Origin: Prolixibacteraceae bacterium
GTDB lineage: Bacteria; Bacteroidota; Bacteroidia; Bacteroidales; Prolixibacteraceae
Reading direction: 5' to 3'
DNA: 32,257 nucleotides
NCBI GenBank assembly: GCA_016938055.1
Contig: JAFGVJ010000365.1
Coordinates: 1-32,257 of the forward strand
The notes below the pieces were generated by a model, which was not told the DNA's origin, made no database searches, and saw only the letters and a program-made list of their open reading frames with translations. Of the stretch, positions 14,507 through 32,257 are shown one piece after another. Made by a program: the position numbers and the translations under genes. Positions within the stretch are counted from its first letter, which is position 1; the number at the start of each line of letters is the position of its first letter.

Positions 14507-14532
14507 TTCGCTAGCTGCGATATTTCTAAGTG

Positions 14533-16547: not shown

Positions 16548-16550
16548 ATC

Positions 16551-17801
16551 ATGAAGGTGCTCATCATCAATAAATCCTATTACTCGGGCGGTGCCGGTAT
16601 TGCTGCAGGCCGCTTGTTTCAAACCCTGAAACTTGCCGGAGCCGATGTGTCCTTGCTGGTATTGGATCCAACGCTGCACGAAGAAAAAAAACTTATTAGA
16701 CTTACTATCAATTCTTGGCAACGACTGAAATGGTGGGGAATGTTCCTGGCCGAACGCTTGTATTTTTTACCTTTCGAAAAAAGTAAAGCCTTGCGCTATG
16801 CCTTCTCTCCTGCAGTGGCAGGCATCGATATTTCTAAACATCCAGCTGTACGTGATGCTGATATCATTCACCTGCACTGGTACAACCAGGGCTTTTTATC
16901 TCATCGATCGCTCCGCAAATTGTACGCGCTGGGCAAACCCGTTGTGCATACTCTCCACGACATGTGGGCCTTTACCGGCGGTTGTCATTACAATGGCAGC
17001 TGTGAGCGCTTCACTGATCAATGCGGACAGTGCATCTACCTGAAAAATCCTTCAGCGCATGATCTTTCTTTCAAGGGAATTCAATTGAAAAAAGACAGCT
17101 ATCAAAATGCCAAATTAACCATTGTTACCTGCAGCCGATGGTTGGGTACGATGGCAGCTAAGAGTAGCCTGTTGAAGGAGAAGCAGGTTTTAGCCATCCC
17201 CAATTCCATCGATATCAACTATTATCAGCCCCTTCATCGTAATGAAGTTCGGGAAGCACTCCATCTTCCCAGTCATCGTCAATTGGTATTGTTTGGAGCT
17301 GCCAACCTGAACGATCCCCGAAAAGGCCTGTCCTATTTTCTGGAAGTCCTTGAATTGGTGAAAGCTGATTTCGACATCGTGGTTTTTGGCAAGAATTCAG
17401 TATTGATGAAACAGCAAAGCCGCTACAAAGTACACGACTTTGGTTTGATTGCTTCAGCCGAAAAAATGAAGGCACTGTACCAGGCTGCCGATGTCTTTGT
17501 GCTCCCATCGTTGCAGGATAACCTCCCCAATACCGTGATGGAAAGCCTGGCTTGCGGTACTCCGGTGGTAGCCTTTGAAACGGGTGGAATCCCCGAAATG
17601 GTCGATCACCTGGTCAATGGTTACATCGCCCGCTATCAATCATCATCCGAACTGGCTGCTGGCATTGAATGGGTTCTTAAAAACAACACCGGCAACGTTC
17701 TGGGCAAAGCTGCCCGCGAAAAAGTACTTCGTGTATACAGCGAAGAAGTGGTTGCCCAACAATACCTTCAACTCTATGAAAAGGTGCTGAATGAAAAATA
17801 A
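16551..17801 (+). CDS. Glycosyltransferase family 4 protein with cysteine cluster
   Basis: A GT-B enzyme of 416 residues. The N-terminus NKSYYSGGAGIAAGRL and the segment HTLHDMWAFTGGCHYNG identify a subgroup that includes WcaC-like enzymes. Four cysteines, C145, C151, C158 and C161, are spaced like a small metal-binding or structural knuckle. The donor-binding domain has VLPSLQDNLPNTVMESL, in which the E-X7-E loop keeps its second Glu. It overlaps the following GT2 gene by 11 bases, which points to translational coupling. Donor and acceptor sugars are unknown. Confidence 0.92.
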   Translation: MKVLIINKSYYSGGAGIAAGRLFQTLKLAGADVSLLVLDPTLHEEKKLIRLTINSWQRLKWWGMFLAERLYFLPFEKSKALRYAFSPAVAGIDISKHPAVRDADIIHLHWYNQGFLSHRSLRKLYALGKPVVHTLHDMWAFTGGCHYNGSCERFTDQCGQCIYLKNPSAHDLSFKGIQLKKDSYQNAKLTIVTCSRWLGTMAAKSSLLKEKQVLAIPNSIDINYYQPLHRNEVREALHLPSHRQLVLFGAANLNDPRKGLSYFLEVLELVKADFDIVVFGKNSVLMKQQSRYKVHDFGLIASAEKMKALYQAADVFVLPSLQDNLPNTVMESLACGTPVVAFETGGIPEMVDHLVNGYIARYQSSSELAAGIEWVLKNNTGNVLGKAAREKVLRVYSEEVVAQQYLQLYEKVLNEK

Positions 17802-18546
17802 TCCCAAAATATCTGTCATCACCATTGTTTACAACGATGTTGTACACCTCGAAAGCACCATCCGCTCAGTGCTGGAGCAAACTTATCGGTACATCGACTA
17901 TGTGATCATTGATGGGAATTCAAGCGATGGAACGGTAGATATCATCAGAAAATACAGCAACAAACTGGGATACTGGAGCAGTGAACCCGACAAAGGCATT
18001 TATGATGCCATGAACAAGGGGCTAAATGCTGCAACAGGTGATTATGTGCTCTTCCTTAATTCGGGTGACAAACTTTATCATGCCAATTTGTTGTCGGAGC
18101 TGTTCGAAAATCCGGGAGATCAACTGCCCGATGTGGTTTACGGTGAAACCATGATCATTGCTGAAGATGGCTCCGAGATTGGGCTTCGTCGTTTAAAAGC
18201 CCCCGACGCTCTCACCTGGAAAAGCCTGAAAGATGGCATGCTGGTTTGCCACCAATCATTTTTTGCCAAGCGCGAACTTGCACCCATGTACAACTTGAAT
18301 TATAAAATTGCTGCCGATTACGAATGGATGCTGGCCATTTTGAAAAAGGCCGTGATCATTCATAACTGTCATCAAATTGTTGCAGCATTTCTCGACGGTG
18401 GCCTGTCAAAGAATCACATCAGGCAATCTTTGAAGGAACGTTTTTCAATCATGGTGCACTATTACGGATGGATGCCTACTATATTCAACCACCTTTTAAT
18501 TGGTCTCCGATTTTTTAATTTTTTATTGATAAACAAACGATTTTAA
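17791..18546 (+). CDS. Glycosyltransferase family 2 protein (WcaE-like)
   Basis: The 251-residue GT-A enzyme shows SVITIVYND near the N-terminus, IIDGNSSDGT at 39-48, SEPDKGIYDAMNKG at 64-77, and LFLNSGD at 87-93 in the place of the DxD metal site. CHQSFFAKRE and AADYEWML follow. The pattern matches the WcaE-like group that works on exopolysaccharide repeat units. The ATG lies inside the end of the preceding GT4 gene (11-base overlap). A 73-base gap with a -7 box follows, so this may be the last gene of the first transcriptional block of the cluster. Confidence 0.92.
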   Translation: MKNNPKISVITIVYNDVVHLESTIRSVLEQTYRYIDYVIIDGNSSDGTVDIIRKYSNKLGYWSSEPDKGIYDAMNKGLNAATGDYVLFLNSGDKLYHANLLSELFENPGDQLPDVVYGETMIIAEDGSEIGLRRLKAPDALTWKSLKDGMLVCHQSFFAKRELAPMYNLNYKIAADYEWMLAILKKAVIIHNCHQIVAAFLDGGLSKNHIRQSLKERFSIMVHYYGWMPTIFNHLLIGLRFFNFLLINKRF

Positions 18547-18600: not shown

Positions 18601-18619
18601 AAAAGAAAAATCAACTTCA

Positions 18620-19708
18620 ATGCAATTCTGCGACCTTAACCGGCAATACAAAGCATATCAATCTGAGATTGATACCGCCATGAAGGCAACAATCGAAAGT
18701 GCTTCCTTCATTCATGGAAGTGCCATCGATGAGCTGGAACAACAACTTGCAAACTATACCGGGGTGAAACATGCCCTTGCCTGCAGCTCAGGGACCGATG
18801 CGCTGTTGCTCGCCCTCATGGTCAAAGGGGTTCAGCCCGGTGACGAGGTCATTTGTCCGGCTTTCAGTTTCTTTGCTTCAGCTTCGATGATCAGTTTTTT
18901 GAAAGCTACTCCGGTTTTTGTGGATGTATCGCCACTGGATTTTAACATCGATGTCAATCAGATCGCAGCAAAAATAAATTCAAAAACCAAAGGCATCATG
19001 GCTGTTTCGCTCTTTGGTCAGTGCGCCGATTTTGATGCCATCAACCAGCTGGCTGAGCAATTTGGTTTGTGGGTGATTGAAGATGGGGCCCAATCGTTTG
19101 GGGCACTCTACCATGGCAAGCGTTCGTGCAGCCTTACCGAGCTGGCTGTGACCAGCTTCTTCCCGGCCAAACCACTGGGATGTTATGGCGATGGAGGTGC
19201 AGTTTTCACCAACAACGATGAGCAGGCTGCCCGAATACGCATGTTACGTTCCCACGGCCAGGTTAGGCGTTACGAACATCACTTCATTGGATTGAATGCG
19301 CGCATGGATACCCTGCAGGCTGCGGTGTTGAAGGTGAAACTCAAATATTTTGAAACTGAAATTGAGAAGCGCAATCAAGCTGCACATCGGTATACTGAAC
19401 TTTTGGACGGAGCCGTATTGTTACCCGAAGTATTGCCGGGTCGGAAAAGTGTTTGGGCACAATACACCATTGGGGTGGAAAATCGTGACGCCCTGAAAAT
19501 CCGTTTGCAGGAGATGGGAATCCCAACGGCAGTCCACTATCCGTCAATACTCCCACGGCAGTTGGCCTTTGATGGTTTAACCTCCGAACACGGTGAATTT
19601 GAAGTGGCCGATTTGCTTTCCAAAACGGTTTTGTCGCTCCCCATGCACGGGCTGATAACAGCCGAAGAGGTTGAGGAAGTATGTACGGCAATAAAGCAGA
19701 TTATTTGA
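18620..19708 (+). CDS. wbpE: DegT/DnrJ/EryC1/StrS sugar aminotransferase, WbpE-like
   Basis: This PLP-dependent enzyme of 362 residues would add an amino group to C3 of a 3-keto UDP-GlcNAc uronic acid. Key sites are SSGTDALLLAL (56-66), PAFSFFASASM, IEDGAQSFGA (153-162) and the PLP lysine K184 in FFPAKPLGCYGDGGA. The N-terminus MQFCDLNRQY is typical of WbpE-like proteins. WbpD-like and WbpB-like genes follow directly, which strengthens the pathway call. A different 3-amino sugar (for example a Qui3N-type) would use a similar enzyme, so the exact substrate is inferred from neighbours. Confidence 0.88.
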   Translation: MQFCDLNRQYKAYQSEIDTAMKATIESASFIHGSAIDELEQQLANYTGVKHALACSSGTDALLLALMVKGVQPGDEVICPAFSFFASASMISFLKATPVFVDVSPLDFNIDVNQIAAKINSKTKGIMAVSLFGQCADFDAINQLAEQFGLWVIEDGAQSFGALYHGKRSCSLTELAVTSFFPAKPLGCYGDGGAVFTNNDEQAARIRMLRSHGQVRRYEHHFIGLNARMDTLQAAVLKVKLKYFETEIEKRNQAAHRYTELLDGAVLLPEVLPGRKSVWAQYTIGVENRDALKIRLQEMGIPTAVHYPSILPRQLAFDGLTSEHGEFEVADLLSKTVLSLPMHGLITAEEVEEVCTAIKQII

Positions 19709-19763
19709 CCGCAAAACCACAAAGCCGCTGAGATTTTTCTTAGCCCCTTTGTGCCCAGGCGGT
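19708..19763 (+). repeat. Imperfect palindromic repeat between wbpE- and wbpD-like genes
   Basis: A left arm from ACCGC through CACAAAG to GCTGAG is answered, after ATTTTT, by CTTAGC, CTTTGTG and GCGGT. The arms are about 25 bases each and pair with several mismatches. The unit starts on the last base of the wbpE stop codon and covers the GTG otherwise read as the wbpD start. Its wording resembles the widespread intergenic family of CACAAAG/CTTTGTG palindromes. Only one copy was seen in this window. Confidence 0.65.
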
Positions 19764-19776
19764 GAAAAAACAAAAT

Positions 19777-20337
19777 ATGGAAGGAATGATACACCCAACG
19801 GCTGTTGTCGATCAAGGCGCCCAAATTGGTGGCGGAACAAAAGTCTGGCACTTCACTCATGTGATGAGCGGTGCCAATATTGGTAATGACTGTGTCCTTG
19901 GACAAAATGTTTACATTGGGGGAAAAGCCATCATCGGGAATCGTGTAAAGATTCAGAACAATGTGAGTGTATACGATGAGGTTGTTCTTGAAGACGATGT
20001 GTTTTGCGGTCCCAGTTGCGTGTTTACCAATGTGATCAATCCCCGTTCTTTTGTAGAACGAAAGCAGGAATACAAAAGCACCCTGGTGAAGAAAGGGGCC
20101 AGCATCGGGGCCAATGCCACCATTTTGTGCGGGGTGACCATTGGAGCCTATGCACTGATAGGAGCGGGAGCTGTGGTGACCACCGATGTGCCCGATTTTG
20201 CATTGATGGTGGGTGTACCGGCTGTTCGCAAAGGATGGGTCAGCCGCAACGGTGTGGTACTGGATGAGCAATTCATCTGTCCCGAAACCCATGAACGCTA
20301 CCAACTGGTGAACGGAACTTTAATATGGAAAACATGA
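19777..20337 (+). CDS. wbpD: Left-handed beta-helix N-acetyltransferase, WbpD-like
   Basis: The protein of 186 residues would acetylate the 3-amino group of the sugar made by the WbpE-like enzyme. It is built of hexapeptide repeats from [13 protein letters not shown] to [18 protein letters not shown]. It carries the WbpD/WlbB signature [16 protein letters not shown] and [15 protein letters not shown], and ends with a short tail ([17 protein letters not shown]). I take the ATG at 19777: an upstream GTG at 19762 falls inside the palindromic repeat. The ATG at 19786 is a third option. The stop overlaps the next start in ATGA, a sign of translational coupling. Confidence 0.88.
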
Positions 20338-21275
20338 AGAAACAATTTGCCTTGATTGGTTCGGCCGGATACATTGCCGAGCGTCACATGCAGGCCATAC
20401 GTGCCGTGGATGGTGAACTGGTGGCGATTGCCGATAAAAACGATGTGATGGGGAAAATCGACAGTTATTTCCCCGGGGCTGATTTTTTTCTGGAAACCGA
20501 ACGCTTCGATCGTTATCTCGACAAGCAACGCCGAAACCAGCAAGCAATCGATTATGTTTCGATTTGTACCCCCAATTACCTGCACGACGCTCACATCAGG
20601 CTGGCCTTGCGAAACCAGGCCCATGCCATCTGTGAGAAGCCCCTGGTGCTGAATCCATGGAACATTGATGCCCTGGAGCAAATTGAAAAGGAATCGGGAA
20701 AGCAGATTTACAACATCTTGCAATTACGACTCCATCCTACCATTATAGCCTTGCGGGAAAAGGTTTTAAAGGCGCCGGCCGACAAAATATTTGATGTGGA
20801 TCTCACCTACATCACCTCAAGGGGCAAGTGGTATTACTATAGCTGGAAAGGCGATGTTTCCAAATCGGGCGGAATAACCACCAATATTGGCATTCATTTT
20901 TTTGACATGCTCACATGGATTTTTGGAGATGCCGAATTCAGTAAGGTACACTTTCAAAATGCACAAAAGGCAGGGGGCTTTCTTCAATTACAGCATGCCC
21001 GGGTCAGGTGGTTCCTGAGTCTCGACCAGAACGATTTGCCCCGGGAACAACGATCCAAAGGATTGAGCACTTATCGTTCCATCACCATCGATGGCGAAGA
21101 AATTGAGTTCAGCAGTGGGTTTACCGATTTGCACACGCAATCGTACCAGCAAATATTGTCAGGACATGGATTTGGGATAGACGATGCACGCACCAGCGTT
21201 GAATTGGCTTATCAAATCCGGAACAGTGAGCCTGCAGGGCTCACGGGTGATTATCACCCTTTCCTTAATTTGTAG
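20334..21275 (+). CDS. wbpB: Gfo/Idh/MocA family oxidoreductase, WbpB-like
   Basis: The 313-residue enzyme would oxidise C3 of UDP-GlcNAc uronic acid with NAD, giving the 3-keto substrate for WbpE. The nucleotide motif is G9-S-A-G12-Y-I-A15 and the family EKP motif is at 101-103 (CEKPLVL). [21 protein letters not shown] in the second half matches WlbA/WbpB-type dehydrogenases. The ATG at 20334 overlaps the wbpD stop by 4 bases; an ATG at 20325 would add three residues. It is the last plus-strand gene of the cluster and converges on the 97-residue protein gene with a 5-base gap and no visible terminator. Confidence 0.88.
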
Positions 21276-21280
21276 TATTA

Positions 21281-21574
21281 TTACGATTTGGGCAATAAGG
21301 AGTTCAGCTGTTCGTAAGCCTTGTTGCAGACTGTCAACAGCTCATTCGAAACTGCCTTGAAATGCTCGTGAACCAGTTTCTTGTTTTCCCTGCCATCGGG
21401 ATGATTTACTTTGGAAATAAGGCTGTTGTGCATTTCAGTAACTTCAATGATGATGTCCAGGATTTTCTTCTTATCCTGCTCTTCAGTGACCATTTCAGCA
21501 AGGTCCAATGCATCCAGGATCACTTGTTGTGTAAGAAAGCGGATGTCTTTCTTGAGTTCTTTTCTACTTGACAT
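21281..21574 (-). CDS. Small helical protein of unknown function
   Basis: A protein of 97 residues, rich in Leu, Glu, Lys and Ile, with no membrane segment or signal peptide. It reads as three or four amphipathic helices (LTQQVILDALDLAEMVTEE, KILDIIIEVTEMHNSLISKV, and EHFKAVSNELLTVCNKAYEQL). I do not recognise a named domain. It lies 41 bases after the Ig-like lipoprotein gene on the same strand, so it is probably the third gene of the PBP1A operon. The reading frame is supported by spacing and by its regular amphipathic pattern. Confidence 0.72.
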   Translation of the reverse strand: MSSRKELKKDIRFLTQQVILDALDLAEMVTEEQDKKKILDIIIEVTEMHNSLISKVNHPDGRENKKLVHEHFKAVSNELLTVCNKAYEQLNSLLPKS

Positions 21575-21615
21575 ATTTGACTTTTTTTGTTGATCAATTT
21601 TTCTGATGATTCAAT

Positions 21616-23448
21616 CTATTCCCGATTTTTTTTAGTCTCCTCGTAAGCTTTCACCGAAATTTTTCCGGACTCAATCATCCAGTTTTCTTTTATTTCCCAG
21701 TTTGACTTCACATTCAGTACATTCTGATAATAATATACCGGTTCGGGTTGTTGTCTTTGATCCAGATTACCGGTATCCCACCGGCCATTTCCATTCAGAT
21801 CCTCAATCAGTTTTAATCGGTAACTGGCAGGTCGCAGGTAAGCAAAGGTAATGGTTTTTGTGCCAGGCTCCACCTTTTGTTCTGCTACAATGGTTTCATT
21901 GTTCGAATGCTGAAGTAATTGTAAAATAGCCTGTCCTTCGATTCCTGAGATATCGATGATCGCTGTTCCATAATAATCAGCCTTTTGAGTTTTGAATACT
22001 TCATCAAAAACTTTGTTGGGAATACCCGAGCGTGTTTGCACCAAACCAGAGTCAATCACCAACTGATAACGGGTAGCTTCTTCGGGTTCATAGCTAATGA
22101 TGTATTTTCGATTTGAATTTTCAAGCACTTTAAAGCTGAAACTGACAGGTTCTTTGACAGAGTCGTTCAGTAGTTTCATGAAAGTAAGCATGGTACTGTC
22201 AAAAACTGCAACAGGTGAAGGAGCCTCAAGCTGAATCATTTTGTTGAGGTCGAAATTGTTGGAAGTGATGTTGCTTTTGAAAGTAAACAGCTCATTTTCA
22301 TGAGTTTCCTCGGCCGATTTATTTTTTGATTTTCCTTTATCTGTTTTGGAAGAATAAACCATCCTGAGGGTATCGTTTACCATGATGGGTTGATTCAGTG
22401 AATCGCGTCCGGTGTACAGCAAATGCAAAAAGAGGGTATCCTGCAGAATGAGCATGGTATCAGTAAGCCAGATGTTCAAACTGTCACGATTAGAGCTGTA
22501 TTCCAACTCAGTAGCCATCGAAGCTTCATCCATGTTTAACAGCGAATATTGAAACGAGTCAGTGAGTGACTCGTTAAAAGTCAGGAATAAGTGATCACGG
22601 CTTTCCCGTTTCGATTGGATGATGTATTGTCTGAATGATTCTTGCTCAAAAATTCGGGCATATACGTCGTCGGGCAAGTATGCCACATAACCAGGTGCCA
22701 GAATGGTATCGTTTTCTTCAAAAATGGTATCCGATGCTTGAATAAAACGTGCCGAAGGAAGCAGAAAACTGTCGATGAATGCAATTTTCTCACTAGCTTG
22801 AGAAAACATCAGGTTATTGTCGATGTCAGTCAAACCGTAAAGTTTGTATGCACCCTCAGGAAGATTGTCGAAAAGAAAAAACCCTTTTTCATCGGTTTTA
22901 GCAATAAAATCGGGGCGTAGGGTTGAAAATACTGAATCTACATCGAGGGTGTAAAGGGTGGCGAAAGCATCTTTCACCGGACTAAGGGTGAAAGCATCAA
23001 CCAGATAACCGCTAATGCGCAGGGTATCGATGCTCTCGTAAGTCGAAAACAGCATCCTGATGCTTTTAATTTTGTTGCCTTCGTTATAATCCTTGATTCC
23101 ATCTTTTAAATCGACCGAATAAGTTCTGTTAGGAATGAGGTCTTCAGTAAACTTAATGTGGATGGATTTCCCTTTCATTTTAATGCTTGGTTTATTGGCC
23201 AGGGGGGGTGAAATCACCATTTTGGCCGAGAGGTTGTCCTGTACCACATATTCATCGAAGCCGATTATCAGTTCATTGTTCGATACATTGGTGGCATAGG
23301 GTTGCGGAACCATGTTGGTGATGACAGGCGGGATGGAATCCTTCTGGCCTCCGTCGGGGCCCGCACCTGGATTGGCACATCCCTGAGTCCAGAGCATCAG
23401 TGCCACGGTCAAAAAAACCAGGAAGATGGATGATACAAGTTTTCTCAC
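21616..23448 (-). CDS. Ig-like domain lipoprotein (SbsA-type)
   Basis: The 610-residue exported protein has a signal peptide ending in TQGC with lipid-modified C24, followed by a flexible Gly/Pro-rich linker (GAGPDGGQKDSIPP). Residues 36-135 match a bacterial SbsA-like Ig domain (ITNMVPQPYATNVSNNELIIGFDEYV). A carboxypeptidase-regulatory-like segment (ISGYLVDAFTLSPVKDAFATL) comes next. The C-terminal part ends with a DLNGNGRWDTGN loop that may bind calcium. Such proteins are common outer-membrane lipoproteins of Bacteroidota with no assigned function. It follows the PBP1A gene by 17 bases, so a cell-wall link is possible. Confidence 0.85.
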   Translation of the reverse strand: MRKLVSSIFLVFLTVALMLWTQGCANPGAGPDGGQKDSIPPVITNMVPQPYATNVSNNELIIGFDEYVVQDNLSAKMVISPPLANKPSIKMKGKSIHIKFTEDLIPNRTYSVDLKDGIKDYNEGNKIKSIRMLFSTYESIDTLRISGYLVDAFTLSPVKDAFATLYTLDVDSVFSTLRPDFIAKTDEKGFFLFDNLPEGAYKLYGLTDIDNNLMFSQASEKIAFIDSFLLPSARFIQASDTIFEENDTILAPGYVAYLPDDVYARIFEQESFRQYIIQSKRESRDHLFLTFNESLTDSFQYSLLNMDEASMATELEYSSNRDSLNIWLTDTMLILQDTLFLHLLYTGRDSLNQPIMVNDTLRMVYSSKTDKGKSKNKSAEETHENELFTFKSNITSNNFDLNKMIQLEAPSPVAVFDSTMLTFMKLLNDSVKEPVSFSFKVLENSNRKYIISYEPEEATRYQLVIDSGLVQTRSGIPNKVFDEVFKTQKADYYGTAIIDISGIEGQAILQLLQHSNNETIVAEQKVEPGTKTITFAYLRPASYRLKLIEDLNGNGRWDTGNLDQRQQPEPVYYYQNVLNVKSNWEIKENWMIESGKISVKAYEETKKNRE

Positions 23449-23465
23449 GCTTACACAATTTTTAT

Positions 23466-25826
23466 TTACCAGAATACATCGTACTCGGGCACAGCCGATT
23501 CATGTTGAGCAGCGCCATCATCGGGGCATTCAAGGTTAATTCTGAAGTTCTCGGGCCGCTCGAAAACAAAATCCTGTTGATAATGAAGGCTTGAATCGGC
23601 AAATACTTTTTTGAAAAAACGTCCAAACACCGGTAAGGCCATGTTGGAACCCTGTCCGCGGGTAATGTCTTCAAAATGGATGCTACGGTAATTGGCACCG
23701 GTCCATACGCCTGCCACCAGTTCAGGTGTAAAACCTACAAACCAGCCATCGCTTTGGTTTTGGGTGGTTCCGGTTTTTCCTGCAAAAGGTGTTTCGAAGC
23801 CTCCATATTCTTCAAAAACCCCGTAGCTCGATGTCAACCTTCGTCCCGATCCGCTGCTCACTACATTCTGGAGCAGGTTGGTCATGAGGTAAGCGGTATT
23901 TTCGTCGAGGGCATCGTGCCTTCGGGGCTGAAACTCCGAAAGTATGTTTCCATGTTTGTCCTCAATCCTTGAAACAATGACAGGGCTGGTATAGACACCT
24001 TTGTTGGCATATACTCCGTAGGCAGCCACCATTTCATACAGTGTAATTTCAGCAGGCCCCAGGAAAAGCGAGGGGACCGAAGGTAAATCACTGTAAATGC
24101 CCATGCGCTGCATAATGTTAATCATGGCATCGGGGTTGTATTGTTTCATGACCCATGCCGAAACCTGGTTGACCGAATTAGCCAGCCCCCAACGCAAGCT
24201 AACCATTTTCCCGTCGAAATCGGTAGGGGAGGAATTACGGGCAGTATAGGGTGTCCCATCGCTGTTGATGATGGTTTGTTCAACATTGGGGACTTTGGTA
24301 CAGGGCGACAGGCCGTTTTGCATGGCTACGGTGTAAAGAAATGGCTTACAGGTGGAGCCAACCTGGCGTTTATAAGTACTTGAGCGAACCATGTCGATTT
24401 CGGTAAAGCCGTAATCAACACCTCCCACCCAAGCCTTCACTTCACCTGTCTGCGGATCCATGGCCATGAAGGATGAACTCAGGTGTTTCAGGTAATATTT
24501 GATGGAATCGAGCGGAGACATGATGGTGTCCTTGAATCCTTCCCAGGTATAAACCATGATGGTATCCGGGAGATCGAATTCCCGCAAAATACGTTCCGAT
24601 GACAAACCTGATTTTTTTAAAGTTTTATATCGGTTGCTTTGGAAAATCATGTTCCGGATAATCTGCTTTGCCTGGTCATCGGTCAAATCGTTGGAGAAGG
24701 GTGAATTCTTGAATTTTTTGACATGGGCATCGAATTGTGGTTGCAACAGCTTCAGATGGGTTTGCACGGCCTCTTCGGCATATTGCTGCATGTTGTAGTT
24801 GATACAGGTATAAATTTTCAGACCATCGTTATACAAATCGTAGGGCGTACCGTCGGGTTTAAGATTTTTGTTGCACCAGCCATAAAGCGGGTCAGTTTGC
24901 CAGGCAACAGAATCCTCAAAATATCGTTGGCGGTTGTTGTAATTTTCCCTGAGGGGCATGGTGGCAATCATGGTTCTTTCAAGGTATTTTCTGAAATAAG
25001 GAGCAATCCCCTTTTTCAAACCGCTACGATTGAATTTCATATCGATAGGTTTCACCCGGGTAGTGTCATATTGTTCACGGTTGATGTAGCGGTTTTTAAG
25101 CATTTGCCCAAGTACAACATTCCGGCGTTGAAGGGCGCGTTCTTCCGAACGGGCAGGGTTGTACAATGCAGGGTTTTTCAACATACCTATCAGCAGGGCC
25201 GCCTGATGCATTTCCAATGAATCGGGGCTGGTACTGAAATAAGTTTGTGCTGCCACTTCAATGCCAAAAGCTCCGTATATAAATTCAAACTTGTTCAGGT
25301 ACATGGTAATGATCTCTTCTTTGGTATAGCTGCGCTCAAGCTTTACGGCAATGATCCATTCCCTGAATTTGCGCACCACCAGTTTAAAGCCCGAGACGTC
25401 CTCACGTGGAAACAGCAGTTTGGCCAATTGTTGCGAGATGGTACTTCCGCCTCCCGAATTGGTATTGTTGGTCAAAATCCCTTTCACTACACGGAACAAG
25501 CCTTTAAGGTCGATACCGGAGTGATTGTAATAACGTTCATCTTCGGTGGCAATCAATGCCTGAATCAGGTATTTGTTTAAATCTTCGTATTCTACAAGGG
25601 TTCGGTTTTCATCCTTGTAATATTTACCCAGTAGCTGATGGTCCGAAGTGATGATCTCTGTGGCTATCAGATTTTTAGGATTTTCCAACTCCTCAAAGGT
25701 GGGCATGAAACCCAGCTTACCGGCTGCCATCAGCCAGAAAAAAACAATGGTCGTTAGCATAAGCAGGGCTGCAGCTGACCAGATGATCCTGATGTAAAGG
25801 GTGAAATGCTTCTTTTCTGTTTCCAT
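23466..25826 (-). CDS. Penicillin-binding protein 1A (bifunctional transglycosylase/transpeptidase)
   Basis: This class A PBP polymerises and cross-links peptidoglycan. The 786-residue protein has an N-terminal membrane anchor (about 11-36). A GT51 transglycosylase domain carries catalytic E95 in EDERYYNHSG and GGGSTISQQLAKLLF at 125-139. The transpeptidase domain has S491-T-C-K494, an SVN motif, and KTGTTQNQSDGWFVG at about 680. I chose the ATG at 25826: a GTG at 25844 would overlap a perfect -7 promoter box. It is the first gene of a three-gene operon and is divergent from topA. Confidence 0.97.
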   Translation of the reverse strand: METEKKHFTLYIRIIWSAAALLMLTTIVFFWLMAAGKLGFMPTFEELENPKNLIATEIITSDHQLLGKYYKDENRTLVEYEDLNKYLIQALIATEDERYYNHSGIDLKGLFRVVKGILTNNTNSGGGSTISQQLAKLLFPREDVSGFKLVVRKFREWIIAVKLERSYTKEEIITMYLNKFEFIYGAFGIEVAAQTYFSTSPDSLEMHQAALLIGMLKNPALYNPARSEERALQRRNVVLGQMLKNRYINREQYDTTRVKPIDMKFNRSGLKKGIAPYFRKYLERTMIATMPLRENYNNRQRYFEDSVAWQTDPLYGWCNKNLKPDGTPYDLYNDGLKIYTCINYNMQQYAEEAVQTHLKLLQPQFDAHVKKFKNSPFSNDLTDDQAKQIIRNMIFQSNRYKTLKKSGLSSERILREFDLPDTIMVYTWEGFKDTIMSPLDSIKYYLKHLSSSFMAMDPQTGEVKAWVGGVDYGFTEIDMVRSSTYKRQVGSTCKPFLYTVAMQNGLSPCTKVPNVEQTIINSDGTPYTARNSSPTDFDGKMVSLRWGLANSVNQVSAWVMKQYNPDAMINIMQRMGIYSDLPSVPSLFLGPAEITLYEMVAAYGVYANKGVYTSPVIVSRIEDKHGNILSEFQPRRHDALDENTAYLMTNLLQNVVSSGSGRRLTSSYGVFEEYGGFETPFAGKTGTTQNQSDGWFVGFTPELVAGVWTGANYRSIHFEDITRGQGSNMALPVFGRFFKKVFADSSLHYQQDFVFERPENFRINLECPDDGAAQHESAVPEYDVFW

Positions 25827-25843
25827 TTCAAAAAATGTTTGCA

Positions 25844-25851
25844 CAAAGATA
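25844..25851 (-). promoter_or_regulatory. Candidate -7 box for the PBP1A operon
   Basis: TATCTTTG on the minus strand matches TAnnTTTG exactly and overlaps the GTG at 25844. Transcription would begin near 25838, giving a leader of about 11 bases to the ATG at 25826. A TTG at proper -33 spacing was not found. Confidence 0.45.
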
Positions 25852-25998
25852 ATGAAATCTGACAGTATCGTTTTTCATGTTAAGGTGAGCATTCACGATA
25901 CTGTTTTCCTTACTTTTTAGGAACTGAAGGCGAGCCTGAAATATTGCCCGGCTGATGAGACAAAATGAAAATAATTGAAAATGAGTGATCAAAAAATT

Positions 25999-26029
25999 TT
26001 GAACTTCGCTTTTGAATTTCTTTACTTTG
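25999..26029 (+). promoter_or_regulatory. Candidate promoter for topA
   Basis: TTG at 25999-26001 is followed after 20 bases by TTACTTTG (26022-26029, one mismatch to TAnnTTTG). The predicted start near 26036 gives a long leader of about 100 bases before the ATG at 26140. Confidence 0.45.
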
Positions 26030-26035
26030 CAAATT

Positions 26036-26112
26036 ATTTTTTTGAGCGTTTTATTTTTCATATTGAATTTCACCTGTTTATATCCTGAGAGGTGATTTAA
26101 GCTCAAAAAAAT
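26036..26112 (+). repeat. Nested inverted repeat in the topA leader
   Basis: ATTTTTTTGAGC (26036-26047) is perfectly complementary to GCTCAAAAAAAT (26101-26112). Inside it TCACCT (26070-26075) pairs with AGGTGA (26090-26095). In RNA the outer arms could hold the 5' end of the topA leader against a site about 28 bases before the start codon. The A/T runs lower its statistical weight. Confidence 0.4.
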
Positions 26113-26139
26113 TAAATAGTGAAAAACGAAAAAGATAAT

Positions 26140-28476
26140 ATGGTAAAAAACCTGGTGATTGTTGAGTCTCCCGCGAAAGCAAAAACAATTGAAAAATTTT
26201 TGGGGAAGGATTTTGTGGTCAAATCTAGTTTTGGGCACATCCGCGATTTGGATAAAAAGGATTTTGGGATTGATATCGAAAACAATTTTCAACCAAATTA
26301 TATTGTATCCACCGACAAGAAAGCGGTGGTGAAGGAATTGAAATCCCTTGCAAAGGATGCCGAGATGGTTTGGCTGGCTTCCGATGAGGACCGCGAGGGA
26401 GAAGCCATAGCCTGGCACCTGATGGAAACACTGGAACTCGATCCGCAGAAAACAAAACGGATTGTGTTTCATGAAATTACTAAGAATGCCATTCTCGAAG
26501 CCATCAATCATCCGCGTCAAATTAACAAGCAGGTGGTAGATGCCCAGCAGGCACGACGTATTCTCGACCGTTTGGTCGGTTTTGAAGTGTCTCCTGTATT
26601 GTGGAAAAAAGTTAAGCCTCAGCTTTCAGCAGGCAGGGTTCAGTCTGTGGCCGTTCGCCTGATTGTGGAACGAGAAAGGGAAATACACCAGTTTGAGTCC
26701 ACTTCGGCATACAGGGTAACAGGTTTTTTCCTGGTGAAAGATGAAAACGGGAAGTTTGCCGAATTAAAAGCTGAGCTGAACCAACGTTTTGATACCCGGG
26801 ATAAAGCCAAAGCTTTTCTGGACCGTTGTACTTCGGCCAGTTTCCGTGTCGAAGATGTCACAACCAAGCCTGCCAAACGGAGTCCTGCACCACCTTTTAC
26901 CACTTCAACATTGCAGCAGGAGGCCAGTCGTAAACTGAGTTTCTCCGTTTCGCAAACCATGAGTGTTGCTCAGAAATTGTACGAAGCCGGTAAAATCACC
27001 TATATGCGTACCGACTCGGTCAATCTTTCTTCGTTAGCCATTCATACAGCCAAAGCGAAAATTGTTGAGTTGTTTGGTGAAGATTACGCTAAAACACGCC
27101 AGTACAAAACCTCTTCGAAGGGAGCCCAGGAAGCACACGAAGCCATCAGACCCACTTACATGGATCAGGAAAACATTTCGGGCACCAAACAGGAGCAACG
27201 TTTGTATGACCTGATCTGGAAACGTTCCATTGCTTCGCAAATGAGCGATGCTTTGCTGGAAAAAACCAACATCACCATACAGGTATCCACCGCACCCGAG
27301 AAATTTATTGCCAGCGGTGAAGTCATTAAATTCGAAGGTTTTCTGAAAGTGTACCTTGAATCGACCGATGACGACGACGAACAGCCAAATGGTGAATCGT
27401 TGTTGCCGCCCATTCAAGTTAATCAGCTCTTGGATTTGAATCAGATTGTTGCTGCTCAGCGGTTCAGCCAGCGTCCGGCAAGATATACCGAAGCCAGTTT
27501 GGTAAAAAAACTCGAAGAACAGGGTATCGGACGACCTTCGACATACGCACCCATCATCACCACCATTCAGAACCGTGGTTATGTTGTGAAGGAAGATCGT
27601 GCCGGTTTTGAACGCGAATTTACCACCCTGACCCTCCATAGCGGAAAAATTGTTGAAAAAGTGAATTTGGAAAATTATGGCTATGAAAAATCCAAACTTT
27701 TCCCCACCGACATTGGCATGGTGGTGACTGATTTTCTGCTGAAGAACTTCAATCCTGTGATGGATTACAATTTCACTGCCAACGTCGAAGAACAGTTCGA
27801 CTTTATTGCCGAGGGAAAAGAAGAGTGGAGCCGGATGATCGGTGATTTCTACAAACCTTTTCACCAATTGGTAGAACAAACCCTGCAAATTTCAGAAAAA
27901 GCAAATGGTGAACGTATTTTGGGCATCGATCCGGCAAGCGGGAAACAGGTTTCAGTAAAAATAGGCCGCTTTGGCCCACTGGCTCAAATTGGTGAAACCA
28001 GCGATGAAGAAGGTGCCGACAAACCAACTTTTGCCAGCTTGCAGTCTGGCATGCACATCGAAACCATCACCCTCGATGAGGCATTGAAACTTTTCAAATT
28101 ACCCCGTGAGGTAGGCGAATATGAAAGTAAAAAGGTCACAGTGGCCATTGGTCGTTTTGGCCCCTATATCAGGCACGACAACAAATTTGTTTCACTGGAG
28201 AAAAGTGATGATCCTTATACAATTATCCTCAGCAGAGCCATTGAACTTATTGAGGCCAAACGCGAAAAGGATTCCAAAGCGGTGATCAGAGTGTTTGACG
28301 AAGATCCCGATATGAAACTCCTCAACGGAAGATGGGGACCATACCTGAGCTACCAGAAGAACAATTACAAGCTTCCGAAGAACAGCCAGGCCGAGAGCCT
28401 TACTTATGCCGACTGTCAAAAAATTATTGAAGCGGGAAACAGTCCGAAAAAAGCAACAAGGAAAAAGAAAAAATAA
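26140..28476 (+). CDS. topA: Type I DNA topoisomerase TopA
   Basis: TopA relaxes negative supercoils by cutting one strand and forming a 5'-phosphotyrosine link. The 778-residue protein has the Toprim motifs VIVESPAKAKTIEKFLG (E9) and SDEDREGEA (D82, D84), and the catalytic tyrosine Y288 in TYMRTDS. KLEEQGIGRPSTYA lies in the core. Instead of the C4 zinc fingers of the E. coli enzyme, the C-terminus has three GR(F/W)GP repeats at about 609, 671 and 730, followed by a Lys-rich tail. I take the ATG at 26140, which gives the family start MVKNLVIVES; the GTG at 26119 is less likely. An intrinsic terminator follows. Confidence 0.98.
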   Translation: MVKNLVIVESPAKAKTIEKFLGKDFVVKSSFGHIRDLDKKDFGIDIENNFQPNYIVSTDKKAVVKELKSLAKDAEMVWLASDEDREGEAIAWHLMETLELDPQKTKRIVFHEITKNAILEAINHPRQINKQVVDAQQARRILDRLVGFEVSPVLWKKVKPQLSAGRVQSVAVRLIVEREREIHQFESTSAYRVTGFFLVKDENGKFAELKAELNQRFDTRDKAKAFLDRCTSASFRVEDVTTKPAKRSPAPPFTTSTLQQEASRKLSFSVSQTMSVAQKLYEAGKITYMRTDSVNLSSLAIHTAKAKIVELFGEDYAKTRQYKTSSKGAQEAHEAIRPTYMDQENISGTKQEQRLYDLIWKRSIASQMSDALLEKTNITIQVSTAPEKFIASGEVIKFEGFLKVYLESTDDDDEQPNGESLLPPIQVNQLLDLNQIVAAQRFSQRPARYTEASLVKKLEEQGIGRPSTYAPIITTIQNRGYVVKEDRAGFEREFTTLTLHSGKIVEKVNLENYGYEKSKLFPTDIGMVVTDFLLKNFNPVMDYNFTANVEEQFDFIAEGKEEWSRMIGDFYKPFHQLVEQTLQISEKANGERILGIDPASGKQVSVKIGRFGPLAQIGETSDEEGADKPTFASLQSGMHIETITLDEALKLFKLPREVGEYESKKVTVAIGRFGPYIRHDNKFVSLEKSDDPYTIILSRAIELIEAKREKDSKAVIRVFDEDPDMKLLNGRWGPYLSYQKNNYKLPKNSQAESLTYADCQKIIEAGNSPKKATRKKKK

Positions 28477-28489
28477 ATAATGTAAGAAT

Positions 28490-28522
28490 GGCAGGCCATA
28501 AGGCTTGCCTTTCTTATTTTTA
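28490..28522 (+). terminator. Intrinsic terminator after topA
   Basis: GGCAGGCC (28490-28497) pairs with GGCTTGCC (28502-28509), with one G-U pair and an ATAA loop, followed by the T-rich TTTCTTATTTTTA. It lies 13 bases after the topA stop. Confidence 0.75.
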
Positions 28523-28542
28523 GTATTATTTTCATCCTGGCA

Positions 28543-28610
28543 TATTTTTGATTGCCTGCAAACCGGAAAGGATCACTCAACAGGATCCCAAACGGTATTT
28601 TGTAGTTTTG
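28543..28610 (+). promoter_or_regulatory. Two candidate -7 boxes for the arginase-like gene
   Basis: TATTTTTG (28543-28550) and TAGTTTTG (28603-28610) both match TAnnTTTG. The first would give a leader of about 65 bases and the second one of only about 6. Neither has a clear TTG at the right spacing, so the choice is open. Confidence 0.3.
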
Positions 28611-28622
28611 ATTGGAGCATAG

Positions 28623-29813
28623 ATGTTTAAAGAGAAAATTGCCGAAACACTCCGTTTTTTTGAGCCTGTTCAACACCGGGACTTCATCGATCTGTCGTAT
28701 ATCAACGACCAGGGATCGGTGGGAAATTGGCTATGGACCAATACAATGGGTGAAACAGTACCTCCTCCTTCCAAATTTGAATTGGCGCTGATTTTCGCCG
28801 ACATCTACCTTAACCCCGATGGTCATCTGACCAACCAAAGCCCGCAACGGATCAGGGAAGAATTTTACAAATTGCGAAAACTATCGCCCGGGTTCAGGGT
28901 TGCCGATTTGGGAAACCTGAAAACAGGAAAAAGTATCCAGGAAGCCATTTTTGTGCTCGACGAAATATGCACCCGGCTTTTTGCCTTAAAAGTGAATGTT
29001 GTGGTTGTTGGAGGTTCCCAATTGCTGACGCTGGGCATGTTCAATGGTTTTAAAACCTTTGAGAACAACATCAACCTTTTGCATGTTGATGCACGGATTG
29101 ACCTGTCGGTGAATGATGAAAGCATGTCCGGAAGTCATTACCTGAATCAACTGATGGGCGAAGGTGCCCCAAATATTTACAACATCGCCTGCCTGGGCTA
29201 CCAGACATATTTCGTCGATACTCAGCAAATCAAACTTTTGAACGAAAATTATTTTGAGCATTACCGATTGGGCGATGTACGGGCAACTCCCGAAGCATTT
29301 GAACCAGTCATCCGTGATGCCGACCTGGTAAGTTTCGACATTTCGGCGGTTCGGATGAGTGAAGCACCTGCTCAGCGCCATGGTTCGCCCAATGGTTTTT
29401 TTGCTGATGAAGCCTGCCGTTTGGCGCGTTATGCAGGCATCAGTGACCGGGTTCAAGCTTTTGGGCTCTTCGAAATTGACGCGCTTTGTGATCGCGACCA
29501 GGCTACAGTAAAGCTGGCCGCACAAATGATTTGGTATTATCTCGAGGGATATATCAACCGAAAACACGATTATCCACAAGCTTCTCTGGAGGATTGTACA
29601 AAATATGCGGTACAAATAGACGAAATCGATTTTCCAATCGTTTTCTATAAAAGCAACAAATCGGGCCGATGGTGGTTAGAGGTAAAAACGCCTCAAAACC
29701 AGGAAAATAAACAGGCAACTGTGATTGTTTCCTGTCATGAAGATGACTACCGGAATGCTTGTAATAATGAGATTCCTGACCGTTGGTGGCTCAATTTTAA
29801 GAAATTAAAATGA
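28623..29813 (+). CDS. Arginase-fold (formimidoylglutamase-like) protein with lost metal ligands
   Basis: The 396-residue protein has the ureohydrolase fold: VVVVGGSQLLTLG (127-138), NLLHVDARIDL (151-161) and LVSFDISAVRM (235-245) stand at the places of GGxHS, DAHxD and DxDxxDP. Of the six usual manganese ligands, three acids remain (D156, D160, D239), while both histidines and one acid are replaced (Q133, R158, S241). Hydrolysis of guanidino groups is therefore unlikely. A C-terminal extension of about 75 residues (from 320) ends in RWWLNFKKLK. It lies between topA and the porP-gldK-gldL genes. Databases would probably label it formimidoylglutamase, which this sequence does not support. Confidence 0.88.
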   Translation: MFKEKIAETLRFFEPVQHRDFIDLSYINDQGSVGNWLWTNTMGETVPPPSKFELALIFADIYLNPDGHLTNQSPQRIREEFYKLRKLSPGFRVADLGNLKTGKSIQEAIFVLDEICTRLFALKVNVVVVGGSQLLTLGMFNGFKTFENNINLLHVDARIDLSVNDESMSGSHYLNQLMGEGAPNIYNIACLGYQTYFVDTQQIKLLNENYFEHYRLGDVRATPEAFEPVIRDADLVSFDISAVRMSEAPAQRHGSPNGFFADEACRLARYAGISDRVQAFGLFEIDALCDRDQATVKLAAQMIWYYLEGYINRKHDYPQASLEDCTKYAVQIDEIDFPIVFYKSNKSGRWWLEVKTPQNQENKQATVIVSCHEDDYRNACNNEIPDRWWLNFKKLK

Positions 29814-29823
29814 AGGTTCGTCT

Positions 29824-29850
29824 TTGGGAAAACAGAATATCTTATTTTTG
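29824..29850 (+). promoter_or_regulatory. Candidate promoter for the porP-gldK-gldL operon
   Basis: TTG at 29824-29826 and TATTTTTG (29843-29850, an exact TAnnTTTG match) are 16 bases apart, slightly short of the usual spacing. The predicted start near 29857 gives a leader of about 34 bases to the ATG at 29891. The -7 box sits in the 77-base gap after the arginase-like gene. Confidence 0.45.
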
Positions 29851-29890
29851 TTGCAGATCGATACCATTACTGAAAGGTAGAGAAGCTTTT

Positions 29891-30868
29891 ATGAAAAAAA
29901 TATTTTCTTTTTTTATTTTGTTTATATTGGTTAATTTAGCAGCTAATGCCCAAAACGAACCATTATTTAGCAATTACATGCTAATGAGGAACATAACTAA
30001 TCCTGCGATGGTAGGTGCAGGCAGCACAATTAATGCTATTTTTAACAACCGAACCATGTTTGCCGGTTTTGGTGATGGTAAACCTGTAACTTCGGTATTT
30101 GGAGTGGAAGCTCCTTTTGAAATGTTGGGTGTACGGAATGGTGCTGGTTTAACAGTGGTGAGTGATGAGATTGGGTTTTTTACCTCGGTGAAGGTTGATG
30201 CAGCATACGCCTATCATCATCAACTGGAAAGCGGTACCCTGGGGGGAGGATTTACCATGGGATTCAATAGTTTTTCACTATCTGAAGCCGATTGGAAATT
30301 TCCATCGGATGATGACCGGTTTGGTACCGCCGATGGTGATGATCTCATTCCTGATCAGTTTGAAATACTCACGTTCAGCGTCGGGCTTGGGGTTTATTAT
30401 GAAACTCCCCGGTATTACATCGGGTTTTCGGCCTCCAGAATTAACCGGGCTAACTGGGTGGATACCGGAACCGACCAGGCAGAGGTAGTTGTGGGTTATG
30501 ATATGCCTACTTACTATTTAACAGGGGCATACAATATTGAATTGCCCGATCCGTTATTTGACTTGCGGCCGTCATTTATGCTGAGAAGCGATTTTGCAGC
30601 ATACATACTTGATGTGAATGGAACGGTGTATTACCAGAAGAAATACTGGGCTGGTTTAGGATTAAGAGTATCACCTGCGAACATTGCCGCAATAACAATT
30701 TTAGGAGGCGTTCAACTCATGAATGGGTTAAACATTGGATACGCAATGGATATAAATACGAGTGCGATGATTGTGGGTGGTGCCACCTCGCACGAAGTAT
30801 TGGTAAGCTATTCGTTTAATTTGGATACGAAGCGAGACCAAAAATATAAAAGTGTCAGGTACTTGTAA
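29891..30868 (+). CDS. porP: PorP/SprF family type IX secretion system membrane protein
   Basis: PorP/SprF proteins are outer-membrane beta-barrels tied to type IX secretion and gliding. From the ATG at 29891 the protein has 325 residues with a clear signal peptide (MKKIFSFFILFILVNLAANA, cleavage before QNE). The mature start NEPLFSNYMLMRNITNPAMVGAG is characteristic of the family (motif of the type Y-x5-NPA-x-AG). Alternating beta-strand patterns run to the C-terminus (EVLVSYSFNL). A frame opening at 29810 would add an unlikely 27-residue leader that spans the -7 box. gldK follows after 18 bases, as in the P. gingivalis porPKLMN order. Confidence 0.94.
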   Translation: MKKIFSFFILFILVNLAANAQNEPLFSNYMLMRNITNPAMVGAGSTINAIFNNRTMFAGFGDGKPVTSVFGVEAPFEMLGVRNGAGLTVVSDEIGFFTSVKVDAAYAYHHQLESGTLGGGFTMGFNSFSLSEADWKFPSDDDRFGTADGDDLIPDQFEILTFSVGLGVYYETPRYYIGFSASRINRANWVDTGTDQAEVVVGYDMPTYYLTGAYNIELPDPLFDLRPSFMLRSDFAAYILDVNGTVYYQKKYWAGLGLRVSPANIAAITILGGVQLMNGLNIGYAMDINTSAMIVGGATSHEVLVSYSFNLDTKRDQKYKSVRYL

Positions 30869-30886
30869 GATTTGAATCTTATTGTT

Positions 30887-32188
30887 ATGAAAAATTATAA
30901 AATCATTTTATCGCTCCTGGTCATCTCGATGATCGCAAGTTGCAGCCAAACTGGTGAAAGTGGTGAACTGATCGGGTCTACCCGTTCAAGGGGAAGTTGG
31001 TTCGAGCCTGTTCCCTATGGCATGCAGTTCATTCGCCGTGGTTCTATCCGCATCGGGCCCAGCGATGAAGATCCAACCGGAAGTATCAGCCCTACCAGAA
31101 CCATCTCGGTAGATGCATTCTGGATGGACGATACCGAGATCACCAACAATGAATACCGCCAGTTTGTGAACTGGGTTCGTGACTCTATTGCCAGGGATCT
31201 CCTGTACAACAGTTCCAACCCCAATGCCCAATACTACGGCAACCTCGATGCCGATGGCAATTTCGTGGGGCTGAACTGGAAAGAACCCATTGACTGGAGC
31301 GATACCCTCAGCTTGGAGAGTATACTCATTCCTGCAAGCGAACGCTTCTACCGCAAGCAAGAGCTTGATGCCCGAAAACTGTTTTTCGACTATACCTGGA
31401 TCGACCTGCAAAAAGCAGCTAAACGGCAGAACAGCTACAATTACGAGACCCAAAGTTATGGAGGAGGTATTACTGACCGTTCCGATTTTATTGTTCGTGA
31501 ACGGACCCATGTTTACCCCGATACCCTTTGCTGGATCCGTGATTTCACCTATTCTTACAACGAGCCCTGGACCAGCAAGTATTTCTGGCACCCGGGTTTC
31601 GACGATTATCCTTTGGTTGGTGTGTCATGGGATCAGGCCAATGCCTTCTGCCAGTGGAGAACCAAAATGCAAAACGAATTTTTCGCAAAAGTAGGCGATG
31701 CCACAGTTCAGGATTATCGCCTGCCCACCGAATCGGAGTGGGAATATGCTGCCAGGGGAGGTTTGCAAAACTCCATGTACCCATGGGGTGGATACTATTC
31801 CCGTAATCAGTTGGGCAATTTCATGGCCAATTACAAACCCATGCGGGGTAATTATATCGAAGATGGCGGACTTGCTACCATGAAAGTGGCACATTATCCG
31901 CCAAACGACTATGGTCTGTACGATATGTCAGGTAACGTGGCCGAATGGACCAGTACTGCATTCGATCCGCTGGCCATGTCGCTGGTAAGTGAATTGAACC
32001 CCGACTTTAAATACAATGCAGCCGACAACGATCCTCCAGCATTGAAACGTAAGGTGATCCGTGGAGGCTCATGGAAAGATGTGGGTCTTTACCTCCAGGT
32101 TTCAAGCAGAACTTTTGAATACCAGGATTCAACAACTTCCTTTGTGGGATTCCGTTGTGTCCGTTCATCATTTGGAAACGATTTTTAA
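30887..32188 (+). CDS. gldK: Gliding motility/type IX secretion lipoprotein GldK (PorK)
   Basis: GldK/PorK forms the periplasmic ring of the type IX secretion system together with GldN/PorN, attached to the outer membrane. The 433-residue protein has a lipoprotein signal ending I16-A-S-C19. It has the formylglycine-generating-enzyme fold: GMQFIRRGSIRIG near the start, VGVSWDQANAFCQWR, YRLPTESEWEYAARGG, MSGNVAEWTST, RGGSW and GFRCVRS at the end. The active-site cysteine pair of true FGE enzymes is absent between RGGSW and GFRC, in line with a structural role. The ATG at 30887 is chosen; a TTG at 30872 would lengthen the signal peptide. It lies 18 bases before gldL. Confidence 0.96.
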   Translation: MKNYKIILSLLVISMIASCSQTGESGELIGSTRSRGSWFEPVPYGMQFIRRGSIRIGPSDEDPTGSISPTRTISVDAFWMDDTEITNNEYRQFVNWVRDSIARDLLYNSSNPNAQYYGNLDADGNFVGLNWKEPIDWSDTLSLESILIPASERFYRKQELDARKLFFDYTWIDLQKAAKRQNSYNYETQSYGGGITDRSDFIVRERTHVYPDTLCWIRDFTYSYNEPWTSKYFWHPGFDDYPLVGVSWDQANAFCQWRTKMQNEFFAKVGDATVQDYRLPTESEWEYAARGGLQNSMYPWGGYYSRNQLGNFMANYKPMRGNYIEDGGLATMKVAHYPPNDYGLYDMSGNVAEWTSTAFDPLAMSLVSELNPDFKYNAADNDPPALKRKVIRGGSWKDVGLYLQVSSRTFEYQDSTTSFVGFRCVRSSFGNDF

Positions 32189-32206
32189 TCAAGTAATAAT
32201 AAGCGT

Positions 32207-32257
32207 ATGAATATTGGGGATTTTTTGCGTTCAAAACGTTGGAAGCTGGTCCAGAAC
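32207..32257 (+). CDS. gldL: N-terminus of GldL (PorL), cut by the window edge
   Basis: An ATG at 32207 opens 17 codons that run off the right edge, reading MNIGDFLRSKRWKLVQN. GldL proteins begin with a similar short polar segment with SK-x-W/Y-K before the first of two membrane helices, and form the proton-driven motor with GldM. Position 18 bases after gldK is exactly where gldL is expected. The identity rests mainly on this order. Confidence 0.8.
   Translation, partial: MNIGDFLRSKRWKLVQN

Follow-up and report, generated by a model that had tools for sequence, protein, structure and literature searches.

Based on the gene content of a 32,257-base stretch of DNA from a Prolixibacteraceae bacterium, comparisons to its relatives and a survey of the Bacteroidota, we propose that the consecutive wbpE, wbpD and wbpB genes found there probably belong to a mosaic, O-antigen-like surface-polysaccharide locus for the synthesis of a 2,3-diacetamido uronic acid, and that this locus lies beside genes of the type IX secretion system (T9SS) by inherited synteny. 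The stretch, hereafter the window, is the whole contig C128 of the assembly G000 (3.37 Mb, 403 contigs, 80.7% complete). Gene content, family assignments, gene order and counterparts in relatives are direct observations. An earlier note on this DNA had inferred in addition that the sugar links secreted T9SS cargo to the cell surface.

The identity of the three consecutive genes, as read in the earlier note, is borne out by comparison to solved structures. The product of 18620-19708 matches WbpE (3nu7, E=1.7e-103; next families 2.1e-85) and is equally close to 8e75, a DegT-family aminotransferase without a specific name (2.1e-104). That of 19762-20337 matches the lipopolysaccharide (LPS) acetyltransferase 3mqg, which we take to be WlbB, at 1.1e-74, with the second-best match at 1.5e-37, and that of 20325-21275 matches WbpB (3oa2, 1.3e-102; 3o9z), followed by a second tier at only 1.1e-8. 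Orthologues of WbpB, WbpE and WbpD of the 2,3-diacetamido uronic acid pathway are present. The G000 WbpB retains 95 of 98 near-invariant columns, as defined on 35 other rows, and is altered at residues 26, 28 and 30, which are conserved in 33-35 of those rows; as two of the three changes (V28, G30) are shared with 3o9z, presumably a Thermus protein, ordinary activity is to be expected. In the WbpB tree (36 rows, midpoint root), G000 forms the longest terminal branch (0.44; G004 and G058 0.43; median 0.23).

The pathway would operate as follows. UDP-N-acetylglucosaminuronic acid (UDP-GlcNAcA), presumably supplied by a WbpA absent from the assembly, would be oxidised at C3 by WbpB, aminated by WbpE and acetylated by WbpD to give UDP-2,3-diacetamido-2,3-dideoxyglucuronic acid, UDP-GlcNAc(3NAc)A, a route reportedly established for P. 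aeruginosa by Larkin and Imperiali in 2009. Three glycosyltransferases and two methyltransferases would build and decorate an undecaprenyl-linked glycan containing the sugar derived from it, which the Wzx-like protein would then flip for polymerisation or for ligation on LPS. The locus occupies the left edge of a block of pbp1A, topA, arginase, porP and gldK (here with u97 and Big5 on the block's left) that is found in relatives without wbp.

In the window, wbpE-wbpD-wbpB end a run of nine genes (12225-21275) that also holds the flippase, the two methyltransferases and the three glycosyltransferases, all six recognised by Pfam or NCBIfam matches where they had been placed earlier, at 12.2-18.5 kb. 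All nine genes lie on the plus strand, with successive gaps of 17, 23, 38, 3, -11, 73, 53 and -13 bp, and hence probably form one transcription unit. The closest NCBIfam models to the GT2 glycosyltransferase (17791-18546), WcaE and TuaG, each score far below cut-off. The porP-gldK unit is distinct from this run, with three opposite-strand genes (21281-25844) and topA in-between; downstream of the wbpB end, porP starts after 8535 bp and gldK after 9597 bp. The earlier placement of T9SS genes about 9 kb away is thus correct for porP and gldK, while only 17 codons of gldL fall inside the window and the rest is found on contig C69, which shares 57 exact bases with the window end.

O-antigen-like loci typically keep their position while their contents are exchanged. 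G000 and the relative G010 have in common the left flank queA-truB-uppP-ftsX-yfhO and the right flank u97-Big5-pbp1A-topA, and between them wzx (67% identity to the window), GT4b (51%), GT2 (63%), wbpE (67%), wbpD (68%) and wbpB (55%). Where G000 carries fkbM, GT4a and a methyltransferase, G010 has two LicD genes and a different methyltransferase, as well as an extra wbpA. G028, with yfhO on the left and the same right flank, encodes a 37% identical flippase, a glycerophosphotransferase, an IspD-SDR fusion, an FkbM protein and a GT2. In the tree of WbpB sequences, a clade of eight rows (G004, G028, G010, G031, G005, G003, G041, G027; support 98/93) excludes G000 and G001, which pair only weakly with each other (82/51). 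As this clade includes the copies of the syntenic G010, G031, G028 and G005, the cluster is mosaic. We note that a small protein, presumably resembling the GxxExxY family, is inserted at varying points in wbp clusters of relatives (L042:7783-8169, L050:4281-4685, L057:7602-7988) and does not occur in the window.

A WbpB orthologue (E<=1e-90) was found in 49 of 81 relatives, a count that excludes two fragments (G065, G079; 59-67% identity) and two distant matches (G006, G002; 40-41%). An unbroken order wbpB-u97-Big5-pbp1A-topA is found in G000 and G005, which are of one genus, in G010 and G031 (genus g4) and in G028 (g22). The run from wbpB to gldK is complete in G000, G010, G031 and G028, at 9.6-9.8 kb; the contig of G005 ends inside topA, so that its order is traceable only that far. 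Linkage of wbp to the topA-arginase-porP-gldK block was seen in three genera of one family. In the congeners G001, G003 and G004, wbpB is located elsewhere, with a u97 homologue near it (one gene apart in G003) and u97 not adjoining Big5. As a separate observation, u97 borders wbpB in G000, G001, G004, G005, G010, G028 and G031, irrespective of nearby T9SS genes.

The block itself is more widely kept. The 20 kb upstream of gldK were read in 15 further relatives, 13 of them from the same family and two from other families. The order topA-arginase-porP(-gldK) is present in all 15 and pbp1A stands beside topA in 13, whereas none has a wbpB orthologue within these 20 kb. WbpB is encoded elsewhere in 11 of them, and the remaining four (G018, G019, G023, G048) lack an orthologue. 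In G013 and G033, u97 adjoins Big5 without wbp, so that wbp in the window borders a backbone that predates it. Since the T9SS block is kept without wbp, the closeness of wbp to gldK is best read as inherited gene order. Comparison of neighbourhoods, as suggested in the earlier note, hence yields a distance conserved in some relatives (G010, G031, G028) but a block without wbpB in the 20 kb upstream of gldK in all 15 others read. The wbp and T9SS loci may be linked in function, though the genome evidence does not demonstrate it. G055, from yet another family (the third outside that of G000), likewise contains the block and carries wbpB 19 kb from gldK; we took this for chance and not for independent conservation, as the intervening genes are mostly housekeeping and a dehydrogenase and two epimerases, identified by reading, adjoin its wbpB. 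For 29 further WbpB-bearing relatives, gene coordinates place wbpB and gldK on different contigs in 26 and 75 and about 415 kb apart in G030 and G044, while G056 has no gldK over cut-off.

The gene order could also express another functional tie, for example coordinated cell-envelope growth uniting uppP, ftsX, pbp1A, the polysaccharide and the T9SS ring, without any role in cargo anchoring. This would agree with G000 and G010, where uppP-ftsX to the left and pbp1A-porP-gldK to the right are retained along with the polysaccharide locus. However, such retention is seen in few genera, and in the 15 other relatives read, no wbpB orthologue lies in the 20 kb upstream of gldK, so that we regard this explanation as very unlikely.

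Co-occurrence of WbpB with the sortase PorU was assessed in a phylum sample. It comprised 296 Bacteroidota genomes (G000 and 295 of at least 90% completeness), with cut-offs of E<=1e-40 for WbpB, which keeps one 41% match (G195), and E<=1e-60 for PorU. WbpB was found in 60 and PorU in 197 of the 296 genomes, WbpB being present in 53 of 197 genomes with PorU and in 7 of 99 without. Collapsing to genera (140 Bacteroidota genera), the only treatment of kinship applied, leaves no association: WbpB occurs in 38 of 122 genera with PorU and in 4 of 18 without (38/4/84/14, Fisher p=0.59). The corresponding table for the 81 relatives is 46/3/26/6 (p=0.14). Carriers of WbpB that lack PorU amount to 3 of 49 relatives (G022, G039, G056) and 4 of 42 WbpB genera in the phylum sample. 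These genus counts, in conjunction with the PorU-less genomes, indicate that PorU genomes can do without WbpB and that WbpB also occurs outside them. Separately, four genomes of 97-99% completeness (G022, G039, G063, G067) have GldK over cut-off and no PorU match, i.e. a T9SS-like ring without a detected sortase.

Partner genes of the sugar pathway named in the earlier note, i.e. a UDP-GlcNAc 6-dehydrogenase, WbpS and a VimA-like protein, were not detected in G000, about 19% of which is missing, so that these absences are no proof. For the dehydrogenase, WbpA of G010 gives no match; three PF03721 matches were rejected, since by reading alone the proteins are a 3-hydroxyacyl-CoA dehydrogenase, TrkA and a malate dehydrogenase. 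A close WbpA is present in five of seven congeners (G001, in two pieces at contig ends, G002, G005, G006, G007), G003 and G004 having only distant UDP-sugar dehydrogenase matches, and wbpA sits between wbpD and wbpB in G005, G010 and G031. One consequence could be that there is no such dehydrogenase and that WbpB, WbpE and WbpD act on UDP-GlcNAc, giving neutral UDP-2,3-diacetamido-2,3-dideoxyglucose, in line with the lack of WbpA matches in G000 and with wbpB in G003 and G004, which are without the close type. We consider this highly improbable, as the assembly is incomplete, most congeners have the close enzyme, G003 and G004 retain the distant one, and the conserved columns of WbpB, with V28 and G30 also in 3o9z, give no sign of an altered substrate.

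WbpI, an epimerase required for the manno form only, has no match over the PF02350 cut-off in the same incomplete assembly; the lone match (22.5 bits, below cut-off) is MurG, and the WbpI-type epimerase with a separate O-antigen role, which the earlier note would have counted against its reading, was thus not found. The amidotransferase WbpS, part of the P. gingivalis form only, is likewise without a candidate at E<=1e-30 besides AsnB, the TIGR03108 match being rejected as asparagine synthase B (PRK09431, 925.9 bits, cut-off 499). For VimA, G000 has no TIGR03019 match, the model's sensitivity for VimA being without a positive control; in the available part of PMC7468200, VimA is tied to TIGR03019 by a conserved-domain search match only. 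Among the 81 relatives, TIGR03019 matches occur in 22 of 49 with WbpB and in 12 of 32 without (p=0.65), and the sole match over cut-off, in G058, is on a contig other than that of wbpB. In the congener G001, a PIG-L de-N-acetylase (L051:15261-15905, 59.5 bits) follows a second wbpEDB set; a deacetylase adjoining wbp genes would suit a VimE-like step.

Several observations weigh against a plain surface-polysaccharide locus placed by inherited synteny. WbpA was not found in G000, leaving a gap in the uronic acid route of this assembly, and neither Wzy nor an initiating transferase was recognised in the window. In favour of such a locus, PF04932 (O-antigen ligase/polymerase, Wzy_C family) gives two matches over cut-off in G000. 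The wbp-gldK distance of G010, G031 and G028 is maintained despite only 54-59% WbpB identity, and in the 26 relatives with wbpB and gldK on different contigs, linkage could hide behind contig breaks, as in G005. PorU is over cut-off in 46 of the 49 WbpB-bearing relatives, and at the level of genomes in the phylum sample the two genes are associated (53/7/144/92; PorU in 53 of 60 with WbpB and 144 of 236 without; p=2.9e-5, uncorrected for kinship). The genome-level association was set aside, as the PorU-negative genomes crowd in few genera. Finally, being a surface polysaccharide does not exclude being an anchor glycan, as argued from a 2026 model in which, according to the available part of PMC13086638, the SAGA-containing linker of P. 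gingivalis is attached to ordinary O-polysaccharide. One and the same locus can therefore serve O-antigen and anchoring.

For this reason we retain, as possible though doubtful, the alternative that the operon supplies the linking sugar as well as part of the glycan onto which PorU attaches secreted T9SS cargo by its C-terminus, as happens in P. gingivalis and T. forsythia. WbpA and VimA/VimE would then lie in the 19% that is missing or have diverged beyond the reach of the models. None of the findings that the earlier note named as refuting it came about, and the secretion side of this inference stands: G000 encodes PorU on contig C307 (1177 bits, cut-off 420), followed by PorV (491 bits, cut-off 250), with a GldJ-like gene on the other side of PorU (430 bits, below the 458-bit cut-off), and has 66 matches to the type A C-terminal domain (TIGR04183), 64 of them over cut-off. 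Judged from PorU, PorV and these 64 matches, a sortase-type T9SS exists in G000. The G000 GldM is nearer to 7cmg (244 bits), which we take to be P. gingivalis PorM, than to 6ys8 (127 bits), presumably Flavobacterium GldM, a weak hint of nearness to Porphyromonas. Constancy of wbpEDB while other genes differ between syntenic genera, and the 53 of 60 WbpB genomes with PorU, point the same way, and WbpS and WbpI are dispensable in known cases, T. forsythia apparently being without an AsnB homologue and P. gingivalis without WbpI as far as the available parts of PMC7468200 and PMC4031482 go. The sugar side does not stand equally. The undetected WbpA, WbpS and TIGR03019-type protein, the latter not commoner with WbpB among the relatives, the 84 of 122 PorU genera without WbpB and the four WbpB genera without PorU all speak against it, as do the linking sugars solved so far, which bear an aminoacyl group in the available accounts (PMC7468200, PMC11969387), and P. 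intermedia, which, according to the part available of PMC11969387, achieves cargo anchoring with neither WbpB nor WbpD. A ugd mutant of Cytophaga hutchinsonii has a truncated O-antigen and leaves the cargo Cel9A unanchored (PMC11858162, available part), an indication that a route to uronic acid can be of importance for O-antigen and anchoring alike. A wider model, which we consider unlikely, would be that T9SS cargo of this Bacteroidota lineage is anchored to a variable surface polysaccharide via a 2,3-diamino uronic acid that is constant and derived from the Wbp pathway, that selection holds wbp next to the T9SS core, and that the aminoacylating enzyme is unlike known VimA.

The features of the window are collected in Table 1.

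Table 1. Genes of the window from the flippase to the contig end, with the matches supporting each assignment.
Feature	Position	Strand	Evidence
Wzx-like polysaccharide flippase	12225..13697	+	PF01943 57.3 bits, cut-off 28.2; same-place copy in G010 67% identical, G028 37%
FkbM-family methyltransferase	13715..14506	+	TIGR01444 93.4 bits, cut-off 37.7; no G010 counterpart mapped
GT4 glycosyltransferase (GT4a)	14530..15756	+	PF00534 100.1 bits
S-adenosylmethionine (SAM) methyltransferase	15795..16547	+	PF13489 36 bits, cut-off 27
GT4 glycosyltransferase (GT4b)	16551..17801	+	PF13692 90.7 bits; G010 counterpart 51%
GT2 glycosyltransferase	17791..18546	+	PF00535 81 bits; G010 counterpart 63%
wbpE, predicted UDP-3-oxo-GlcNAcA aminotransferase	18620..19708	+	WbpE-named chains 3nu7, 3nys, 3nyu ~1e-103; DegT family 365 bits
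wbpD/wlbB, predicted 3-amino N-acetyltransferase, hexapeptide-repeat protein	19762..20337	+	3mqg E=1.1e-74
wbpB, predicted UDP-GlcNAcA 3-dehydrogenase	20325..21275	+	3oa2 E=1.3e-102; 3o9z 1.1e-97
u97, 97-aa protein convergent with wbpB	21281..21574	-	no Pfam/NCBIfam match at E<=0.001
Big_5 lipoprotein (backbone gene)	21616..23448	-	PF13205 66.5 bits; lipoprotein from N-terminus reading
PBP1A-like protein, pbp1A (backbone gene)	23466..25844	-	PF00912, PF00905; TIGR02074 464.3 bits, below cut-off 508.75
topA (backbone gene)	26119..28476	+	TIGR01051 690.9 bits, cut-off 456.4
Arginase-family protein (backbone gene)	28623..29813	+	PF00491 65.1 bits
porP/sprF family T9SS protein	29810..30868	+	TIGR03519 190.8 bits, cut-off 90.55
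gldK/porK ring lipoprotein	30872..32188	+	TIGR03525 551.3 bits, cut-off 350
gldL, first 17 codons (51 bases), contig end cuts gene	32207..32257	+	57-base overlap with gldL-bearing C69

Compared to known systems, the T9SS genes follow the porP-gldKLMN core operon, with porP-gldK in the window and gldL (157.6 bits, cut-off 68.3), gldM and gldN on the overlapping C69. They differ from it in a second GldK directly after gldN (L128:3753-5093; TIGR03525, 521.6 bits), giving the order gldK-L-M-N-gldK2; two gldK about 5 kb apart are also seen in family relatives such as G010, G028, G036 and G047. The sugars linking T9SS cargo have been solved for P. gingivalis, T. forsythia and P. intermedia, all of them oral species, and differ between them (available parts of PMC7468200 and PMC11969387). 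With the C-terminal cargo glycosylation of P. intermedia, G000 shares a T9SS of the PorU and C-terminal-domain type; the linking sugar there is an N-alanyl deoxyhexose, and P. intermedia is without WbpB, WbpD, VimA and VimE as far as the available part of PMC11969387 goes, so T9SS anchoring does not imply Wbp. The Wbp/Vim linking-sugar pathway of P. gingivalis and T. forsythia, as described in the available part of PMC7468200, has its counterpart here in WbpB, WbpE and WbpD together with PorU, PorV and type A C-terminal domain matches, but WbpA, WbpS and a TIGR03019-type VimA were not detected in G000, and the wbp genes are clustered here while scattered separately in the P. gingivalis genome (PMC4031482, available part). 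Nearness is therefore no mark of that pathway, and neither Wbp genes alone nor closeness to T9SS genes should be read as an anchoring system; the locus is rather a testable candidate for the use of a Wbp sugar in T9SS anchoring among other Bacteroidota. The Wbp (Wlb) O-antigen pathway of P. aeruginosa PAO1 and Bordetella differs in WbpA and WbpI, which were not found in G000, and is alike in that orthologues of WbpB, WbpE and WbpD are clustered with a flippase and glycosyltransferases.

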